A stretch of 41,978 bases of DNA from a virus. The first letter of the stretch is position 1, and the number at the start of each line of letters is the position of its first letter. Positions 11,381 through 34,616 of the stretch are shown here, in pieces. The notes under the pieces were generated by a model. The model was not told the DNA's origin, made no database searches, and was given only the letters and a program-made list of their open reading frames with translations. The stretch spans positions 1 through 41,978 of IMG/VR virus record IMGVR_UViG_3300028364_001256, one strand, 5' to 3'. A program made the position numbers and the translations under genes.

Positions 11381-12853
11381 TTATATCTTTATTTTATTTT
11401 TTTCTATAAATACTCTTAATCTCTCAAAGTCAACCATAAATCTCTTATCACCACCAGCAATCTTATTTCTACTGATAGATTCATAATGAAATGCGACTGC
11501 ATCACTTACAGTTATGTTCTTAAGTCCCTGATGCTTACACTTGAGATTTAATTCCACGTCTTCCAAACATTCAATATAGTTTTCATTAAATCCATCGAAA
11601 GAGAGGAATAATTCTTTTTTAATTAACATGAATCCACCAGTATTTCCCTGTGAATTGTAGTTGACTTTTGTTTGGTAGTTTTCGGTTTTTCTGATATCAC
11701 GGTGTGATAATTTTATCGCATCACCGTCCCGAACCAATGTAATTCCGTTATGTTGGATGCTGGCATCGCCATAGTGTAACCTTATACCAATTGTCCCGAC
11801 CTTCTCTTTGTTCTCATTATAAATATCAACAACCCTACTCAGAGCATCATTCAGTAAGATGATGTCATCGTTACAGAATAACAGGAGTTCGGTATCGGCA
11901 CTGACATGATTTTTCACCACGTCATTATTAATCTTGCCGAAGTTATAGTAGTCATAACGCACAAGCCTGACTTTATCACTCAGTAAGCCATCATATGCTT
12001 TAATCACGTCTTCAGAACTACCAGTATCAGCAATAATAATTTCGTAATTATCATATGCAACTACGTTTCGCCACGAATAAAGATTGTTCTCAATATATTT
12101 TAAATTGTTCTTCGTTGGAATAACGACTGTGACTTTGGGTTGAGTTTCTGGTGGAAGAAAGTCATTAAATGGCGGTTCTACCACTAATGGCAATTCGTCT
12201 GCATATAGTTTTACTAATTGTATTTTATTCGTCTCCCACTCTGGAGTTGTTTGACCAATTGAATTATGTAAAATTCTTATTGAAGTCGTGACTCCAATAT
12301 TACAACCATCGAGATAATTAGGAATACAAAAACTCAAGTCATAAAAATGGAATCCTTTAAAACTTTCATCGAATTTATGAATAATGGTGTCTGGGTCGAA
12401 TGCCATGAATAATCCATCGATTAATACAACCTCTTTCACACCAAATATTTCTGGTGAATATTCACTATCCCAAGTACTCAACCCATTTGTGTGTTGAACG
12501 ATTCCCACCATCTTGCTTCGGTCTTCCCACCATGTGCCTGACACTGGTAAGTATGTGCTGCCAGCAACTCCAATAATATCAAAACCAGTATTATTGAATT
12601 TACCCAATAACTGTTTTCCCCACTTAGGAGTTTTAAATACAATATCGTTATGGCACATAACGAAAACACAATCTTTTTCACTGTGTTCATCAATTGCCTG
12701 ATTATAAACTTCAGGAAGACTGAATTGATTAAAATTGGGGTAACAAATGGTTTTGTGTCTTGCACCTATTGTCGCCTTGATGTGGTTGATAAAATCCTGA
12801 TTAAATTCTTCGCTACGATGTGATGAAAACACCACTACGATATTGTTTTTCAT
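11381..12853 (-). CDS. Two-domain GT2 glycosyltransferase
   Basis: In this 490-residue protein the N-terminal half (about 1-210) is a GT2-like domain with NNIVVVFSSHRSEEF and FVMCHNDIVF, a loosely kept DxD. The second half (about 225-490) is a clear GT2 domain: KVTVVIPTKNN, EIIIADTGSSED, LLLFCNDDIIL and the later ECLEDVELNLKCKHQG, as in rhamnosyltransferase-type enzymes. Tandem GT2 proteins often build a repeating glycan or add two sugars in turn. No membrane segments are seen, so it acts in the cytoplasm or at the inner face of the membrane. Its composition is nearer to the tail genes than to the AT-rich block downstream of it. Confidence 0.85.
   Translation of the reverse strand: MKNNIVVVFSSHRSEEFNQDFINHIKATIGARHKTICYPNFNQFSLPEVYNQAIDEHSEKDCVFVMCHNDIVFKTPKWGKQLLGKFNNTGFDIIGVAGSTYLPVSGTWWEDRSKMVGIVQHTNGLSTWDSEYSPEIFGVKEVVLIDGLFMAFDPDTIIHKFDESFKGFHFYDLSFCIPNYLDGCNIGVTTSIRILHNSIGQTTPEWETNKIQLVKLYADELPLVVEPPFNDFLPPETQPKVTVVIPTKNNLKYIENNLYSWRNVVAYDNYEIIIADTGSSEDVIKAYDGLLSDKVRLVRYDYYNFGKINNDVVKNHVSADTELLLFCNDDIILLNDALSRVVDIYNENKEKVGTIGIRLHYGDASIQHNGITLVRDGDAIKLSHRDIRKTENYQTKVNYNSQGNTGGFMLIKKELFLSFDGFNENYIECLEDVELNLKCKHQGLKNITVSDAVAFHYESISRNKIAGGDKRFMVDFERLRVFIEKNKIKI
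11406..11413 (-). promoter_or_regulatory. Possible internal late-type motif GTATTTAT
   Basis: The motif lies in the last codons of the two-domain glycosyltransferase, 35 bases before the start of the methyltransferase gene. It matches all eight bases of the motif seen before tail operons, but here it also encodes part of VFIEK, so it could be chance. If used, it would give the downstream genes a late promoter. Confidence 0.25.
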
Positions 12854-13719
12854 GATAATTTTCTCGTTAATTCATTTGGCATTACACCATTATCTATCAT
12901 TAACTTAAAATGTCCTTTAGTAACATCGGCATTACTTAACGCAAACGCTTTTTCTTCAGGTAAACCCATTCTAAGATATTCTTTATGTTGACTAATACTA
13001 CAACTTTCTTCTGGTTCTAATAATCTCATTCCATCCAAACCACTCGCAATTTTTGACGGGGCAATCCCTCTTCTCGTTGCTTCTTCCTTTCCCATTTTTT
13101 TCCATTTATTTGGTGGAATATTTGTATGTTTTACTGAAATCGAACGATTCTCAACCATGACTTTATGTTGTCCACCCTCCCCATATTTAAGTGCATTAAA
13201 ATATTTTGAATTAAATTTCTGGTATTCTACATCAAGATGGGCAAGTATTTCGTGTTTCAGTTTGATTTCATTTACGACTTCAAATAATTTCCTTACAGCT
13301 GGAAGTATGTCTTTACGGATTGCACGTTTGAAATCCTTGGCAATTGGTTTACGACTCGTCATCGCCAAACCATAGAGTCCAGACTCTTTAATTAGGGTAA
13401 CACTGTTCGAAAACTTAGATATAATGGAGTCTCCAGAGGTCTCGATGTTTAACATCGAACCCTTGTCACTATAATGAGAAAGGAAATCGTTAAATAATTT
13501 ACGATTATTTTTCTTATTGAGAATTAATATCTCATCAGCATCCAAATCAGCATATTGAATTGCATGTGATAAATCACTAAAACCTAAAATTTGTTGAATT
13601 TCTTTTCCAACAAACCAATAAGTATCTTCTTCCTTGGAACTTTTAATTATGGTTAGGTCTCCAAAAATCTGGTGAGGAAATGATTTAACATAATCATTGA
13701 ACTTCAATTGTTTTTTCAT
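12850..13719 (-). CDS. Bro-N domain (phage antirepressor-type) protein
   Basis: The N-terminal half carries a Bro-N domain: TYWFVGKEIQQILGFSD, then HAIQYADLDADE, SVTLIKESGLYGLAMTSRKP and the closing RKDILPAVRK. Bro-N binds DNA in phage antirepressors and in baculovirus Bro proteins. The C-terminal part (about 150-290) has no domain that I recognise. I chose the ATG at 13719 (MKKQLKFND) rather than the one at 13752, because promoter-like boxes lie between the two. The gene overlaps the two-domain glycosyltransferase downstream by 4 bases, so it is the first gene of the glycan run and may regulate it. Confidence 0.8.
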   Translation of the reverse strand: MKKQLKFNDYVKSFPHQIFGDLTIIKSSKEEDTYWFVGKEIQQILGFSDLSHAIQYADLDADEILILNKKNNRKLFNDFLSHYSDKGSMLNIETSGDSIISKFSNSVTLIKESGLYGLAMTSRKPIAKDFKRAIRKDILPAVRKLFEVVNEIKLKHEILAHLDVEYQKFNSKYFNALKYGEGGQHKVMVENRSISVKHTNIPPNKWKKMGKEEATRRGIAPSKIASGLDGMRLLEPEESCSISQHKEYLRMGLPEEKAFALSNADVTKGHFKLMIDNGVMPNELTRKLS

Positions 13720-13724
13720 TATCG

Positions 13725-13753
13725 TAAATTTACCGTTATTGCACAACTGCAAA
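13725..13753 (-). promoter_or_regulatory. Possible host-type promoter of the Bro/glycan operon
   Basis: On the minus strand TTTG (13753-13750) is followed after 17 bases by TAAATTTA (13732-13725), one base off the Bacteroidetes -7 box TAnnTTTG. The ATG at 13719 follows. No late-type motif is present here, so the glycan run seems to use host polymerase. The match is imperfect. Confidence 0.35.
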
Positions 13754-13776: not shown

Positions 13777-14097
13777 TCAAGTATTTCTATTTTTTACGTT
13801 AATAAGTGCTGCCTCGTAGTCACTTAGGGCTTTCTGAAGGGGGAACGGTATGCGAATCAATGCACCATCAGGTATATCGAATTCATTCATGTAAATTCTA
13901 TTGGCGTAAAGAATCAAAAAATCGTAGAAAGGATTTCCATAGTATTTCAAACTGATTCTATCCATACGACTATTTGTGGTATTCCAATACTCATATTTAT
14001 CACTACTGTTTTGTGGTAAAACAACAAATGGCATCATATCGGTTGTGCCGTCATCGTTTTTCAACACATTATATCGGTTATAATCTGGTTTTGGCAT
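13777..14097 (-). CDS. Baseplate wedge protein, T4 gp53-like
   Basis: The 106-residue protein has SRMDRISLKYYGNPFYDFLI followed by LYANRIYMNEFDIPDGALI and RIPFPLQ. This is a LysM-like fold as in T4 gp53 and in the LysM proteins of other contractile injection systems, where it helps close the wedge ring around the tube. The length is about half that of T4 gp53, so it is a minimal version. It overlaps the large baseplate gene by one base and ends the late tail operon that starts upstream of that gene. Confidence 0.72.
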   Translation of the reverse strand: MPKPDYNRYNVLKNDDGTTDMMPFVVLPQNSSDKYEYWNTTNSRMDRISLKYYGNPFYDFLILYANRIYMNEFDIPDGALIRIPFPLQKALSDYEAALINVKNRNT

Positions 14098-17778: not shown

Positions 17779-20268
17779 TTATTTATTGTTTCTACGGTCT
17801 TCTCTGGCTTGAACAGCTAGTTCGGTATTATAGACTTTACGCATGAATCTATTACCATCGATATTCAATGTAACGGTGTTTTCAAGATTCACACTACTTT
17901 TATCAAATTCTACTCGAAGTGGTTTACTCATTAAATCAGCAAGTCCATCAATTGCACTGTTTCTTCTGAGTTTAACACCACTAATGGTTTTAATTGCATC
18001 GGCTATTCTTTCATAATCCGCAGCACTACCACTAAGTCCTTCTTTAATATTTTTTAATGAATCACCTACGGTTGCGAGTTCTGGTGCACTTTTTGCCATT
18101 CTTCTCAATACCATAGAAAGTCCAATCGCTGATGGGAGTGTTATTGCTGCTGCACCGAGACTAGCAGCTATTCCCACAATACCCCCGCTTATTTTCATCA
18201 TATCGTCCCCAGCACCTTTACTGGATTCAAACATTTCACCAAAACCCTTTGCCATGAAACCAATACCAGCAGCAGCGATACCCACTGCACCCCCTACCAT
18301 AAGAAGTGCTGCACCGAGAGCCAAGAGCGGACCGGCTGCTGGAGCAGCAACGGCAGCAACCAATGCAATACCAATAGCAGCAAGTGGAAATGTAACTGCC
18401 ATTGTTGTGGCTATTTTTTGTAGATTTTCAGCTTGTTCGGGTGTTAATTTACTCATGGAATCCGCTAATTCACTCAGACCTTTGGCAGCAAGCATGATAC
18501 CCGCTCCAGCACCTGCCATTGCAGCACCTGCTCCAGCCCCCGCTCCAAGTGCTTGCATTCCTTTAGCTTTACGAAGACCAGCAGCTCCTTTACGTACCAT
18601 ACCTGTTTTAGTGAAATCGGAACCGGGTACACCAGCAGCCATTCCACCTGCCTTACCAGCAGTACCTGAAAATTTTTGAGCAACAGACGCTTTTAATGCT
18701 CCAGCTGTAATATTTAATGCTGCGGTTACGCCTTTCCATAATAATGCAGCAGCAACTAATTTTCTCGCTATTGAAGCAAGAGGTTTTTCGGATTGCATGA
18801 ATTTCGCAATTCCTTCAGTGAATTTAATTATGACATCCCTATTATTTTTAACCCATTCATTTAAATTACGTAATGCAGGTACGAGTGTTGATTTGAGTTC
18901 GTTAAGCGTGGCTTTAAGAACTTGTTCAAATGTTTGTGCTTCTTCAGCACGTTTTTCTAGTGTTTTTTGTTCGATTGTAAATGTTTTTGCCTGTTCTTTA
19001 GTTAATGCACTGATATTTGTCATGGTTCCAGCGAGGTTTACTTGGAATCGACCAGTTTCTTTATTCATTGCAGCAGCACCTGCAAGTAGTTCCTTTTCTC
19101 TATCACTTAATCCCATTCCTGCAAGTTCTTTTTCGGTAGCAATAATGTCAAATCGTCTTTGTGCGATTTCAAACATCTCATCTTTCGCTATTCCCAGAGA
19201 TTTTGCTACTTGTGTAAGTCTATCACGGTCGGCAGGACTTATGATTTTTTCAAATGTTCCGTCAGCGGTTTTTTTCAACGTATACATCCCCGTGGTCATT
19301 TCACTGATTTTTTCAATCATTTTATCGGGTTCGTTACGAGCTATATATAACCACTGGAACGGGTCCATCTTAGCGAATTCCCCGCCCATTACTTGAAGTT
19401 GTGCACCTAAATCAATAACGTTTTCCAGTCCTCTGGTGGCTTCAGCTACACCAAGTGCGGATTCCATACTAACACGGGTCTTCTCGGCATCTTGTGCCAT
19501 TTTAGCAAAGGAAGCCACACCTTTTTGAAATGTAAATGTGCTGAGTTCTTTGAAGTTATCAGCAACTACTTGAAGTACTTTTGTTGTATTTACACCCATT
19601 CTTTCACTGGTTTCAACAACACCTTGAACGTAATCCATCGTGGATTTAGCATTGAATCCCATGAATTCGAACCGTGCACCGAGTTTAGCTGCTTGTTCAA
19701 CACCGAGACCCGTACCAACACCAATGGCTTCGATATTTTTTAACATATCACCTGTGAGAACATGTGCACGACCAGTTTCATTAGCGAAGGTAGATATAAT
19801 TGTCGCAGCATCTTCAAGACCACCACCTAATCTACTCATAAAACCAGCAGATTCTTCAAAACTCTGACGCATGGCAGCAGCTTTAGTCCCTGTAAGTCCA
19901 AGAGTTAGATTTGTAGATTTAATTGCTTTATCTTGTTGTATTAAGAAGTTATAACTCTCTCTTAATGCAGAATTAAATTGTCGTGCTAAATCTATTCTTT
20001 TTTTATACTCTTTATTACCTTTTTTTGTTTCTTCGGTAATATCTTTTTGTTCTTTTTCAATTTCGGAAAGCAGTTCGATTTCTTCTTTAGTAAGTTCATT
20101 ACCTTTGAGAAGTAATTGATTAATAAGTTCCTGATTGTTCTTATAGATTTGTTGTTCCGCTGCTCGTTTACTTTCTTCAGTAAGTATACCCTTACGAAGT
20201 GTTAACGATTCTCGTAACGCATTATTTTCATCTTTAAGTCCTTTTATTAAATCATCTCTATCAGCCAT
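17779..20268 (-). CDS. Tail tape measure protein
   Basis: The 829-residue protein begins with about 110 residues of charged coiled coil (EESKRAAEQQIYKNNQEL, then EKEQKDITEETKKGNKEY). A helical middle follows with repeated Gln, Glu and Ala. Residues of about 530-720 are long Ala/Gly-rich hydrophobic stretches (GAGAGAAMAGAGAGIMLAA, GPLLALGAALLMVGGAVGI). This layout, and a position directly after the gp26-like hub gene, is typical of tape measures of contractile tails, which fix tail length and later pass into the cell envelope. The late motif lies 18 bases before the start, behind a terminator hairpin. Confidence 0.88.
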   Translation of the reverse strand: MADRDDLIKGLKDENNALRESLTLRKGILTEESKRAAEQQIYKNNQELINQLLLKGNELTKEEIELLSEIEKEQKDITEETKKGNKEYKKRIDLARQFNSALRESYNFLIQQDKAIKSTNLTLGLTGTKAAAMRQSFEESAGFMSRLGGGLEDAATIISTFANETGRAHVLTGDMLKNIEAIGVGTGLGVEQAAKLGARFEFMGFNAKSTMDYVQGVVETSERMGVNTTKVLQVVADNFKELSTFTFQKGVASFAKMAQDAEKTRVSMESALGVAEATRGLENVIDLGAQLQVMGGEFAKMDPFQWLYIARNEPDKMIEKISEMTTGMYTLKKTADGTFEKIISPADRDRLTQVAKSLGIAKDEMFEIAQRRFDIIATEKELAGMGLSDREKELLAGAAAMNKETGRFQVNLAGTMTNISALTKEQAKTFTIEQKTLEKRAEEAQTFEQVLKATLNELKSTLVPALRNLNEWVKNNRDVIIKFTEGIAKFMQSEKPLASIARKLVAAALLWKGVTAALNITAGALKASVAQKFSGTAGKAGGMAAGVPGSDFTKTGMVRKGAAGLRKAKGMQALGAGAGAGAAMAGAGAGIMLAAKGLSELADSMSKLTPEQAENLQKIATTMAVTFPLAAIGIALVAAVAAPAAGPLLALGAALLMVGGAVGIAAAGIGFMAKGFGEMFESSKGAGDDMMKISGGIVGIAASLGAAAITLPSAIGLSMVLRRMAKSAPELATVGDSLKNIKEGLSGSAADYERIADAIKTISGVKLRRNSAIDGLADLMSKPLRVEFDKSSVNLENTVTLNIDGNRFMRKVYNTELAVQAREDRRNNK

Positions 20269-20286
20269 CCGATTTCCGTGTTTTAT

Positions 20287-20294
20287 ATAAATAC
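20287..20294 (-). promoter_or_regulatory. Late-type promoter motif before the tape measure gene
   Basis: The minus strand reads TTTTGTATTTATATAAAA; the tape measure ATG at 20268 is 18 bases further on. The motif directly follows the terminator hairpin at 20298-20325. Confidence 0.6.
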
Positions 20295-20297
20295 AAA

Positions 20298-20325
20298 AGA
20301 CCGAGATTTTTTATGGTCTCGGTCT
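20298..20325 (-). terminator. Terminator between gp26-like gene and tape measure
   Basis: AGACCGAGA (20298-20306) and TCTCGGTCT (20317-20325) form a perfect 9-bp stem followed on the minus strand by TTTTG. The stop codon of the frameshift extension (20311-20313) lies in its loop. It ends the gp26-like transcript just before the late motif of the tape measure gene. Confidence 0.75.
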
Positions 20326-20520
20326 GAAATTGTTTTTACTATGTTCTTTTTCTCTCATTTTTTCGATTTCCTCGTATTCTTTCTCAAGTAAAAACAGGAA
20401 ATGTCGTCTACGATAAATCGGAAGACGTTCAACATAATCGGCTTGAAACTTAGCGTGTTTAGTTAGGATGAAAATCTCTTCATCAACTAATTTTTTATAT
20501 TCACCCGCTAAGTGCTTGGG
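20311..20520 (-). CDS. -1 frame extension of the gp26-like protein (no start codon of its own)
   Basis: This frame encodes 69 residues beginning PKHLAGEYKKLVDEEIF, then HAKFQADYVERLPIYRRRHF and a charged C-terminus EKMREKEHSKNN. It has no ATG, GTG or TTG in the open part upstream. It joins the gp26-like gene in the -1 frame exactly at a run of nine T residues (plus-strand A at 20521-20529). Slipping back one base there gives ...DFFFPKHLAG..., so the longer product would have about 387 residues. The helical, charged sequence looks like a real protein. It is probably made only as a fusion, like the GT extension of tail assembly chaperones. Confidence 0.75.
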   Translation of the reverse strand, partial: PKHLAGEYKKLVDEEIFILTKHAKFQADYVERLPIYRRRHFLFLLEKEYEEIEKMREKEHSKNNFRPRP

Positions 20521-21464
20521 AAAAAAAAATCTATGCCGATACTTAGTTGGGTGTTAAACGTATAGCCGTCAGGAGCCGTGAATTTATAATCCATATCAAC
20601 ATCAGGACTAACATCGAGAATTTTTTTTCTGATTGTCAGGGCATCAAGTGCTGGCATTACATCAACAAATTTATTGATATAAGTTGGGTCGGTTTTTTCA
20701 CCTATACCAACAATATGTGCCTTGAGTTTCATAGTGTTATAGTCATTATATTCCAAATTCATAGCTTCTTTATGTGCTTCGGCTTGTTTAAATAACATGT
20801 TTTCCTCACCACTTGTTAGAAGTCTGAATCTAACGTTTTTCTTACGCATGGGAATCTCAACATTAAAACATTTGTTGTCATCGGGTAATTCCTTGGGTTG
20901 TTTATATCTTAATTTAAGTAAATCGACTTTGGTTTGAAATTGTTTACCTGTTCTGGGGTCGGTGACCTGAACACTGTATTCATGACCGTAACTCGAACTA
21001 CGTAAAAACAATAAAATAGCGTTTCTATCGCCAGATAATAAATCGTCTGGATTAATACCTTTGGTTTTAATTTTTCTTTTAAGTAGGACATCGAGAACCG
21101 TTCCGTTTTCAATAAGTGAAGGAGTTGTCAGTAAGTCCTCGTCTTTTGAGGTCATGTATTCCACGTTTACTTCGGAAATTCCGTGATTATAATATAATCC
21201 CTTAGATGGAAGTTTAACGACTTCATAACTCATCATTAGGTCGGGGTCGGTTTCTTTCGACATGGTGTTTTCAAATTCCTTTGGATTAAAATCTCTATTA
21301 CCCGTAGGTAGTGAATCGGCAATTACTTTATCTGGGTCAATAGATTGTGGTGATGCTGGTGGTAAATTACCTTCATTACGCATTTCTTTGTATTTTTTTA
21401 ATACATCAGCAATGGGTTCTTTCTTAGGTGGAACTCCTTGTTGTTCTTGCATTTCTTTGTCCAT
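20508..21464 (-). CDS. Baseplate hub / tail assembly protein, T4 gp26-like
   Basis: The 318-residue protein has the pattern of the T4 baseplate family that includes gp26: VVKLPSKGLYYNHGISEV, then EYMTSKDEDLLTTPSLIENG, LLSGDRNAILLFLRSSSYG and EYSVQVTDPRTGK. The first 75 residues are proline- and charge-rich and look flexible. The gene lies directly upstream of the tape measure, the usual place for tail assembly chaperones. Its last codons are GAT TTT TTT TTC CCA AGC ACT TAG, a T9 slippery site leading into a -1 frame extension of 69 residues. The late motif lies 37 bases before the start. Confidence 0.8.
   Translation of the reverse strand: MDKEMQEQQGVPPKKEPIADVLKKYKEMRNEGNLPPASPQSIDPDKVIADSLPTGNRDFNPKEFENTMSKETDPDLMMSYEVVKLPSKGLYYNHGISEVNVEYMTSKDEDLLTTPSLIENGTVLDVLLKRKIKTKGINPDDLLSGDRNAILLFLRSSSYGHEYSVQVTDPRTGKQFQTKVDLLKLRYKQPKELPDDNKCFNVEIPMRKKNVRFRLLTSGEENMLFKQAEAHKEAMNLEYNDYNTMKLKAHIVGIGEKTDPTYINKFVDVMPALDALTIRKKILDVSPDVDMDYKFTAPDGYTFNTQLSIGIDFFFPST
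20521..20529 (-). other. T9 slippery site for probable -1 frameshift
   Basis: On the minus strand the zero frame reads GAT TTT TTT TTC CCA. The heptamer T TTT TTT fits the X XXY YYZ rule for -1 slipping by the ribosome, and a run of nine T could also cause polymerase slippage. The zero frame stops four codons later; the -1 frame is open for 70 codons. Confidence 0.7.
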
Positions 21465-31847: not shown

Positions 31848-34616
31848 TTATGCACCAACGTCATCAAAACTTGCACCACTTGGGGTTATGGTAAATGTGA
31901 TACCAATAAATTCAAGAGCACGTGTTGGTTTTAAGAAGATTTCTCCATAGAGTTCGTTTCTATCACGAGTCTCAGGTGTGTTATTACTGTTATCCATTTT
32001 GATTCTGAAATCCGTAAGACCTCTTTCACGCTTAATACTATCAAGAATAGGATTAGTTTGATTAAGGAATGAATCAATACTGGCTTGGTCATTCTGTTCG
32101 AATAACAATCTAACAGCGATGTTAGATATAAGAACCTTGATTTGAAGCAGTAATCTGCGAACATTAATTCTATCAAGAGCACTGTCTCTAACCTGTAGAG
32201 TTTTGTTACCGAAAATCGCTGTACCCGTATCAGCGAAATCCGCTAATGGGTTGATTCTGCCACCGTAAAGAATGTCTCTGGCTTCCAGACTGAGTTTGTA
32301 CATTGACTTCCTTGCATTGGTAACACCACGTGTTAAACCAGCTGGTGCGAACCAAGGGAATCTCGTGTTATCGGTAAACGCCATCGCCTTAACAACTTCA
32401 CCAGTTGGTGGGATATATACGTTTACATTGTTCTGAGTATCTCTGATTTGAATCCAAGGGAAGTAAGTACAGCTATAATTACTATCAATACCTGTTTCAG
32501 TAAGAGTATTGGTAATTTGTCTCGCTGCAAAAACATCTTCATTACCACCACCACCAACGGTTGGGTTGGTAATATTAGGTAATTCAGGTGAATCAATAAC
32601 ATAGAGTGTATCGGTTCGCTGTTCTTCAATCATTTCGATTGTGTTCTGAATCAGAATAGTATGGTCAGCCCAATTAATACCCGGTGTGGCAAAAATATTA
32701 ATCGTCACGTCTTCGGGGTTAGCGAAGGTATCAATAGCCATTTCCCATGCTTGGAAATCGTTATTTGGTACTTCATTTGCTGAAAACGTACCGCTTTGTC
32801 TTCCACCTTGTCTATATGCATCATCAACTGAACGAGTTCTACGATTTACATCCCAACCATCAAAACCACCAGCAGGAACCAAGGTGAATTTTCTTGTTGC
32901 TATGTTATAGTATGGGTTTGTTGGGTCATCGGTATTCACATATGTTTTGAAATCACCTTCACCTGTTTCAAACTCATAACCATCAAAAGTAAATGTTGCT
33001 CCACTATCCATATGGAAACCTTTGGATTTCGTGAATCCACTTGAAGGCTGTCCGCTATAGAAGTTAATGAAATCAAACATGTTTTGATTGATACCGTCAC
33101 CAGTATAACCCAATTCAGAAAGACCAAGATATGTCTTACTTACTCTATCGGTGTCGGCATACTCTGTTTTGTAGAATATTGCTGGTGGAATACCTGTAGT
33201 ACTACCACTAACATTCACAGTGTAGTTGTTTAATATGTAGCCTTCAAAACCAGCGGGGAACACATCATTTGGAAGGTCACCTGCGATTTCAGCCATAATA
33301 TATTTACTGTTGAGACTGTATTCACCATCGGAAGTTCCGATTTTCTGTCCAACATAATTACTTGCACCTTTTACCAGTGTACATTTTTGGATGGTTTCCA
33401 AAACACTTGGATTATCATCGGTATCATAGAATTCCCTGACAACGACATCAAATTCCAGTGTATATGGATTAATATTCTGAATCGTTACTTTAATTTCTTC
33501 GTTTGCACTATCACCATCAGAGATAGTGATGAATTTGAATAGTCTGTCAACCGTATTACCTTTAATTTGAGAAACAACCCAAGGGGTTTCGGGAGTCTTG
33601 TAACTGGTTTCGTAATCACCAAAAATGTTATTATCCTCTTCAGTAACAACCATTTCGGTTTTCACACCATACACAAGACTATTTTCATCAAGTTTCATAA
33701 TTAAGTCAGGATAGACTGCCTGAACCCAAATCATGGTATCCTTATCTTTTGGGGTATTACCGATTACATTAGGTAGAAAACTACTATCGTTAGGATTTAA
33801 CGAAACGGTGTAGCTACTTCCAGTACTTCCAGTTACATAGTATGGATTATTTGGGTCAGTATTTGTGGCGATTAATTTAAATTCTTCATAAATATCACCA
33901 ACACCCAGTAATGTTTTATTGTTAGTAATGCTAAGATTAGTTGTTTCAAAATTAGGTGTTGCACCAACCTTACTATCAATTGCAATTTCAGAATCACCAC
34001 GACTTCTAATCACAGCCACAACCATATTCTCATATTCGGCTAATGATGTGCCTGTGTACATGGTTACCACATCAGTAACAGCACCAACACCCTCATTGTA
34101 TGTGGTAGCAGTAAATTCGTGAACATATTGTGTGAAAACATCACCACTTCTTGTGTAGCCAGTAGCTGTTGTTCCTGTAGCACCAAGACTACCAAGAGCA
34201 ACGCCCAGATAACTATTACCTGAAAACGGAATGCTTGTTCCTGTGGTAGCTGATACACCTGTGACGCTATCTAAATCAACCCCAGCTTCAATAACGATGT
34301 TCCACGATTGCCCCGCCTTATATCCACTAAGACCCAGTACTCTGGTCACATATAATTGTTGCGCTTCTTCGAGGAAGGCGTTAGCAACATAAGGTAATTG
34401 ATATTGAAGACTTCCATCGGGAAATCTTTTCGTGCTTTGAATTCCAAAACTTTCTTTGAATTCGGTCTGGTCTTGAATGAAGACGGGTTCAAATGCAGGT
34501 CCCTTCAAGGTTTCTCCAGCCAATCCCAGTGTTGTGATTCCCACATTACGTGTAACATAAGTTAAGTCACGTTCTTTAAATTTTACACCCGGAGAGGTAA
34601 ATACAAAATCTGCCAT
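31848..34616 (-). CDS. Tail sheath protein, T4 gp18-like, enlarged
   Basis: The 922-residue protein begins FTSPGVKFKERDLTYVTRNV, the usual N-terminus of phage sheath proteins. The C-terminal part has AARQITNTLTETGID, FPWFAPAGLTRG, REARDILY-like EARDILYGGRINPLADFADT and DSALDRINVRRLLLQIKVLI, then the closing KPTRALEFIGITFTI. T4 gp18 has 659 residues; the extra length lies in a beta-rich, Thr/Gly/Ser-rich insert at about 120-560, probably domains on the outer tail surface. Contraction of the sheath drives the tube through the envelope. The late motif is 63 bases upstream. Confidence 0.9.
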   Translation of the reverse strand: MADFVFTSPGVKFKERDLTYVTRNVGITTLGLAGETLKGPAFEPVFIQDQTEFKESFGIQSTKRFPDGSLQYQLPYVANAFLEEAQQLYVTRVLGLSGYKAGQSWNIVIEAGVDLDSVTGVSATTGTSIPFSGNSYLGVALGSLGATGTTATGYTRSGDVFTQYVHEFTATTYNEGVGAVTDVVTMYTGTSLAEYENMVVAVIRSRGDSEIAIDSKVGATPNFETTNLSITNNKTLLGVGDIYEEFKLIATNTDPNNPYYVTGSTGSSYTVSLNPNDSSFLPNVIGNTPKDKDTMIWVQAVYPDLIMKLDENSLVYGVKTEMVVTEEDNNIFGDYETSYKTPETPWVVSQIKGNTVDRLFKFITISDGDSANEEIKVTIQNINPYTLEFDVVVREFYDTDDNPSVLETIQKCTLVKGASNYVGQKIGTSDGEYSLNSKYIMAEIAGDLPNDVFPAGFEGYILNNYTVNVSGSTTGIPPAIFYKTEYADTDRVSKTYLGLSELGYTGDGINQNMFDFINFYSGQPSSGFTKSKGFHMDSGATFTFDGYEFETGEGDFKTYVNTDDPTNPYYNIATRKFTLVPAGGFDGWDVNRRTRSVDDAYRQGGRQSGTFSANEVPNNDFQAWEMAIDTFANPEDVTINIFATPGINWADHTILIQNTIEMIEEQRTDTLYVIDSPELPNITNPTVGGGGNEDVFAARQITNTLTETGIDSNYSCTYFPWIQIRDTQNNVNVYIPPTGEVVKAMAFTDNTRFPWFAPAGLTRGVTNARKSMYKLSLEARDILYGGRINPLADFADTGTAIFGNKTLQVRDSALDRINVRRLLLQIKVLISNIAVRLLFEQNDQASIDSFLNQTNPILDSIKRERGLTDFRIKMDNSNNTPETRDRNELYGEIFLKPTRALEFIGITFTITPSGASFDDVGA

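Follow-up and report, generated by a model that had tools for sequence, protein, structure and literature searches.

Conserved -1 slippery site in a gp26-like phage gene points to a probable T4-family tail assembly chaperone made by frameshifting

The gp26-like gene of the viral sequence analysed here (the window, the whole stretch of 41,978 nucleotides) probably yields two proteins from a single message, through -1 ribosomal frameshifting at a T_TTT_TTY site near its 3' end, and encodes a chaperone of the gp26/gp51 family; we put the probability of this reading at about 0.85. The features concerned are collected in Table 1. The short product scored 41.7 bits against the PF12322 T4_baseplate profile (cut-off 24.5; E 1.4e-10), which places it in that family, and it also matched the phrog_150 baseplate hub profile (E 9.3e-12). 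It consists of an N-domain of about 240 amino acids and an additional N-terminal arm of about 75 amino acids that is specific to the clade of the window.

Table 1. Positions of the features discussed, in window coordinates
Feature	Position	Strand	Details
gp26-like short form (TAC-N, 'G'-like)	20508..21464	-	318 aa; PF12322 protein
Frameshift site GAT TTT TTT TTC	20520..20531	-	direct reading; conserved in relatives
0-frame stop TAG	20508..20510	-	few codons past the slip codon TTC
-1 frame extension ('T'-like domain), giving the long form GT when fused	20311..20529	-	selection and profile matches
Hairpin AGACCGAGA-CCATAAAAAA-TCTCGGTCT	20298..20325	-	-13 kcal/mol, z -4.3; followed by TTTTG
Next gene downstream, probable tape-measure protein	17779..20268	-	829 aa; position only
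Tail sheath gene	31848..34616	-	phrog_23 tail sheath, E 7e-63

Read directly, the gene ends GAT TTT TTT TTC CCA AGC ACT TAG, just as the initial annotation of this DNA had described it, with nine T residues (the complement of the A's at 20521-20529) that contain the heptamer T TTT TTT. Two heptamers lie in register for a -1 slip, T_TTT_TTT (20529-20523) and T_TTT_TTC (20526-20520). With TTT at 20529-20527 as the codon phase, the -1 frame reads FFFPKHLAGEYKK...NNFRPRP and then meets a TAA at 20313-20311 (full reading, FFFPKHLAGEYKKLVDEEIFILTKHAKFQADYVERLPIYRRRHFLFLLEKEYEEIEKMREKEHSKNNFRPRP). The open continuation that had been proposed is therefore present, with 68 residues beyond the shared FFFP rather than the 69 first counted. 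Its first ATG, GTG or TTG lies 152 nt past the 0-frame stop, within the extension, making an independent start unlikely. Indeed, the extension had been described as lacking a start codon of its own; none lies ahead of it in the window, and the relatives have no conserved start.

A scan with the window extension itself returned 67 viral contigs of up to 365 kb, containing 51 distinct sites. The closest IMG/VR relatives (L001-L004) share the site, the 0-frame stop and the -1 frame, and the same arrangement extends throughout the clade: in 67/67 contigs the extension is shifted by -1 with respect to the gp26-like gene, with a run of T8 or T9 (T9 at 43 of the distinct sites), and in 67/67 loci the 0-frame stop is at the same place. 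The seven bases past the third base of GAT/GAC are all T at every one of the 51 sites. The sites themselves vary (GAT or GAC; TTC, TCC or TCT), while the frame relation is constant across the 67 contigs. At six distinct GACTTTTTTTTC sites the first heptamer is lost and T_TTT_TTC remains; in the TCC and TCT variants it is T_TTT_TTT that remains. Past the 0-frame stop, the -1 frame showed pairwise differences of 7.8, 2.8 and 20.1 at its first, second and third codon positions, and over 50 aligned codons in 50 distinct sequences it contained no stops, compared with an average of 2.1 and 6.5 stops for each sequence in the two alternative frames. The pattern is indicative of purifying selection on the -1 extension and, with the lack of stops, rules out a sequencing error. 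The initial annotation had named conservation among relatives as the test of its proposal, and the outcome was favourable, with the T run kept in register, the -1 frame conserved and no in-frame fusion. We also looked for a stimulatory RNA structure beside the site: alifold, applied to the 51 distinct sites in six ranges, found none (z -0.03 to +0.47; pseudoknots lie outside its model), and single-sequence folding gave no support for a hairpin or pseudoknot (mean z -0.2).

A wider set of loci was then read, comprising 80 further viral contigs, six isolates and two huge phages. Nearly all have a shifted-frame extension of 55-110 residues directly past the gp26-like gene. The extension lies in the -1 frame in the window clade, in XacN1 and in LR756511 with L171-L173, and in the +1 frame in most of the wider relatives (about 80 loci, isolates included). 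The -1 frameshift originally suggested thus holds for the window clade but not for most of its relatives. Among 77 distinct +1 sites, 47 read TTT TTT TGG, 19 TTT TTT TAC and four TTC TTT TGG, with a few others. A profile made from +1 extensions only found the -1 extension of the window among 8411 six-frame segments (E 7.6e-8) and, more weakly, the extensions of LIS04, GXN1, SP-15 and LR756511; profile-profile comparison of +1 with -1 extensions gave Prob 97.5 and E 7.7e-12 over 65 columns. These matches indicate that one domain is reached through two frames. Fifteen contigs from bacterial or archaeal MAGs comprised one -1 case (a Bacteroidota bin) and fourteen +1 cases. A gp26-like gene with a +1 extension was seen on a 2.8 Mb contig (L182; WOR-3 MAG chromosome CP070664.1, 2763512-2770258), where it could reflect a prophage or a misjoined assembly. 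A scan of viral contigs for relatives of XacN1 gp26 found none, and a scan with SP-15 gp26 returned SP-15 itself.

Every -1 lineage has a -1 heptamer in register: GA[T TTT TTT] in the window, GC[T TTT TTT] in XacN1, and [T TTT TTC] in LR756511, L171-L173 and the cyanophages P-SSM2 and S-PM2. Within the +1 group, the last base of the codon ahead of the site is C in 43 cases and T in 2, against an expectation of 75% T from codon use in the same genes (P about 3e-24, uncorrected for kinship). Both T-ending cases precede TTC, so T_TTT_TTT is absent from this group, and the second codon of the +1 site is never TTC. It seems that the -1 site has been eliminated from the +1 phages. This avoidance, the lack of TTC as second codon and the retention of in-register heptamers in the -1 lineages, even where the run is only T7 or T6, favour codon-phased ribosomal slippage over slippage by the polymerase. 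Run length and phase nevertheless do not predict direction without exception, since in a Winogradskyella MAG contig (L188:3001-3741) the site AAC TTT TTT TTC CCT contains the -1 heptamer T_TTT_TTC, yet the extension is in the +1 frame; this locus is possibly an intermediate between the two classes. Slippage by -2 is disfavoured as an account of the +1 group because members with TTC TTT TGG cannot re-pair at -2, but it is possible for LIS04 (TTT TTT AGT), where +1 re-pairing is poor.

Polymerase slippage would work by adding an extra U within U9, such that a fraction of the mRNAs encode the fusion in one frame, and on a T9 run the same two proteins would be expected. Runs of this length are, in general, known to cause polymerase slippage in other systems, and the lack of an RNA structure beside the site in the alifold analysis is in keeping with it. 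We nonetheless consider this explanation unlikely. Only T8 is present at 8 of the 51 distinct clade sites, and XacN1 (T7) and LR756511 (T6 then C, [T TTT TTC] TTC) have runs too short for efficiency but keep the heptamer. Moreover, the removal of the in-register -1 heptamer from the +1 group makes sense only with codon-phased slippage.

Two further explanations dispense with recoding. The extension might be a small gene in its own right, translated by reinitiation or from its own start, as could be suggested by the ATG a few bases past the 0-frame stop in cyanophages, the ATG at 'KKMVDEE' in several members of the window clade and the small ORFs that depositors annotate on fragments of the extension. 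This seems very unlikely, since the window, L001 and L002 have no ATG, GTG or TTG before nt 143-152 past the 0-frame stop, the T run is retained, and the -1 frame of every member is conserved as far as the slip site, a constraint that would serve no purpose in a separate gene. Alternatively, because homopolymer runs are error-prone, the T run might have been miscalled, or an inactivating frameshift acquired, the true gene being one continuous frame. We give this virtually no credence: the same two-frame layout occurs in 67/67 contigs despite the varying site, singly sequenced isolates show it as well, and a homologous extension lies in another frame in about 80 other loci. A sequencing error in the homopolymer was accordingly rejected.

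Comparison with T4 places -1 frameshifting in the window beside a different arrangement of the same parts. T4 gp26 (208 aa) and gp51 (249 aa) are both PF12322 proteins, gp51 being the longer at the C-terminus. gp26, of the same protein family as the window short form, ends at the same FF motif, and gp51 has a C-terminal domain at the place of the window extension. In T4 the two forms come from two divergently placed genes, whereas the window has one gene and a conserved -1 slippery site. A direct HMM search with the extension profile gave no match to T4 gp51. Profile-profile comparison of the gp51 C-terminus with the extension reached only E 0.01 without the cyanophages but E 9.4e-4 with them as a bridge (score 21.2, compared with 14.2 or less in 40 shuffled controls), which is suggestive of homology. 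The T4 genome has two PF12322 genes. In contrast, a count with a family profile that does not reach the T4 genes found the gp26-family gene in single copy in all 15 frameshift-type records, namely eleven contigs of the window clade (200-365 kb), immuto, Mel-JY01, SP-15 and one +1 contig. No second, in-frame fused PF12322 gene of the T4 type was found in these 15 records, a result that applies to the window (42 kb) by kinship. The cyanophages S-PM2 and P-SSM2 resemble the window: they have a single full-length phrog_150 gene that ends FF with [T TTT TTC], and a gp51-type C-terminal domain follows directly in the -1 frame. However, they have an ATG just past the 0-frame stop where the window has none, so that reinitiation is possible in these phages.

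What the two products might do is suggested by gene order and, to a lesser degree, by predicted structure. The next gene downstream (20268-17779) had no family match in Pfam or phrog profile searches. In immuto and LIS04 the gene that follows the gp26 homologue, past the extension region, is annotated as a tape measure, and we assign the window gene the same identity from its matching position. The tail sheath gene in the window indicates a contractile-tailed phage. As in G/GT-type genes, then, there is a slippery site near the 3' end, a conserved extension in the shifted frame and a position before the (positional) tape-measure gene. An AlphaFold2 model of the gp26-like protein, built with 93 homologues, had a pLDDT of 89. 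When it was compared with 350,542 PDB chains by Foldseek, the first match was the HK97 tail assembly chaperone 2OB9 (E 0.33, prob 0.69), the closest solved fold; VIA gave Z 5.7 and an rmsd of 8.0 over 87 residues for this pair, with YqbN (3KLU) next (Z 5.3). The match is weak by score, yet it points to the function expected from gene order. A search of PDB sequences with the family profile returned nothing meaningful, and it detected no sequence similarity to known chaperones. Tail assembly chaperone is thus the best-supported function, in agreement with the initial annotation, and we regard it as very probable that the window gene is a T4-family chaperone of the frameshifted kind.

The chaperones of lambda (gpG/gpGT), HK97, P2 and Mu occupy the same place before the tape-measure gene and likewise comprise a short form and a rarer, C-terminally extended form made by slippage near the 3' end. 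They differ in that the window N-domain is larger (about 240 aa plus the 75-aa arm) and showed no detectable sequence similarity to theirs in the PDB sequence search, and the site, T_TTT_TTY, is not that of lambda. The 3' end of TAC-N likewise bears a poly-T -1 site in the myovirus chaperone of phage Adele, whose downstream part was misannotated as a separate gene (PMC12846349); Adele belongs to other phage families (Vandenendeviridae/Andersonviridae), and the likeness considered here is one of mechanism.

These comparisons suggest a model whereby most ribosomes would terminate at the TAG (20510-20508) and release the short protein. A minority would slip back one base with tRNA-Phe on the U-run, at T_TTT_TTT or T_TTT_TTC, both of which are in register, and would then read on in the -1 frame, adding a charged helical domain of 68 residues. 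By analogy with the lambda gpG/gpGT model, in which a short and a frameshifted long form act in tail assembly (PMC5009743), the short form would cover the tape measure specified by the next gene, and the long form, which is rarer, would use its added domain to bring in tail-tube subunits. The conserved T run, the selection on the -1 frame, the homology of the extension across frames and the single gene copy are observed; the ribosomal nature of the slippage, its efficiency and both tail-assembly roles we infer. Environmental relatives would mostly gain the same domain by +1 slippage at TTT_TGG or TTT_TAC, the window clade and one or more other lineages by -1 slippage, and Straboviridae such as T4 through a second gene that has it in frame.

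The direction of slippage was mapped onto a tree of 116 proteins, in which the root and the order of events are not settled. The -1 label needs three changes on this tree, forced by well-supported branches: the window clade (100/100), LR756511/L171/L173 (100/100; inside a group with the +1 phages SP-15, LIS04 and GXN1, 98/86) and XacN1. Since XacN1 sits on a long branch and its place is unsure, we claim only at least two changes of direction. We think it reasonably probable that direction changed between -1 and +1 at least twice with the same added domain, that the T4 lineage replaced frameshifting by gene duplication and fusion, and that TTT_TGG/TTT_TAC is a new, widespread +1 signal.

Parts of this picture have precedents. 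In PMC3004832, T4 gp26 and gp51 appear as chaperones of hub assembly. T4-like tail assembly chaperones are described as one short gene and one fused long gene by Vladimirov, Gautam & Davidson (2022), as cited in PMC10885494, a pair that we read as gp26/gp51. The link to T4 in the initial annotation is therefore not new, chaperones of the gp26/gp51 type having already been reported, as far as those citations show. The same 2022 paper is cited in PMC12846349 for T4-like phages whose TAC-N genes contain poly-T -1 signals, so that frameshifting in T4-like chaperones as such may already be published there. The direction of frameshifting is known to vary between phages, and a 2016 review regarded the G/GT frameshift as widely conserved in long-tailed phages 'except T4' (both PMC5009743). 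In the open-access literature we found no earlier account of the window clade, of +1 sites of the TTT_TGG/TAC class or of a reversal inside this family; both the clade and a switch of slip direction among members of a single gene family look new. The result is a large set of frameshifting T4-type relatives, some -1 and most +1, at nearly the same Phe-Phe motif, in which one can test how recoding sites switch direction and how gene duplication takes their place. In the isolate genomes (L007, L008, L010 and L012) the gene is annotated as 'baseplate hub' or hypothetical, the extension being a separate small hypothetical gene in immuto, Mel-JY01 and SP-15 and left blank in LIS04; none of the four genomes has an annotation for the joined product.

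Finally, we examined the region between the extension and the tape-measure gene. The long-form stop TAA sits in the loop of the hairpin at 20325-20298, and a similar hairpin recurs in the window-clade relatives examined. The initial annotation had placed this stop in the loop of a terminator. The loop is as described; the sense-strand T tail is short, however, and a terminator scan called the hairpin on the + strand only, so that a terminator is plausible but weak. The hairpin is a possible attenuator or terminator ahead of the tape-measure gene. An TATTTATA motif lies at 20286-20293 (-) and again at 865, 40820 and 11405 (-) and 26362 (+), 5-35 nt upstream of several window gene starts in the sense direction. 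In 44 of 51 distinct relatives it is found close to the hairpin that precedes the start of the tape-measure gene. It is a possible phage promoter motif, and its reverse complement is the T4 late motif TATAAATA. Elsewhere in the tail gene block, an anti-repressor-like gene (12850-13752, -; phrog_2011, E 1.1e-15) adjoins a baseplate-wedge-like gene at 13777-14097.
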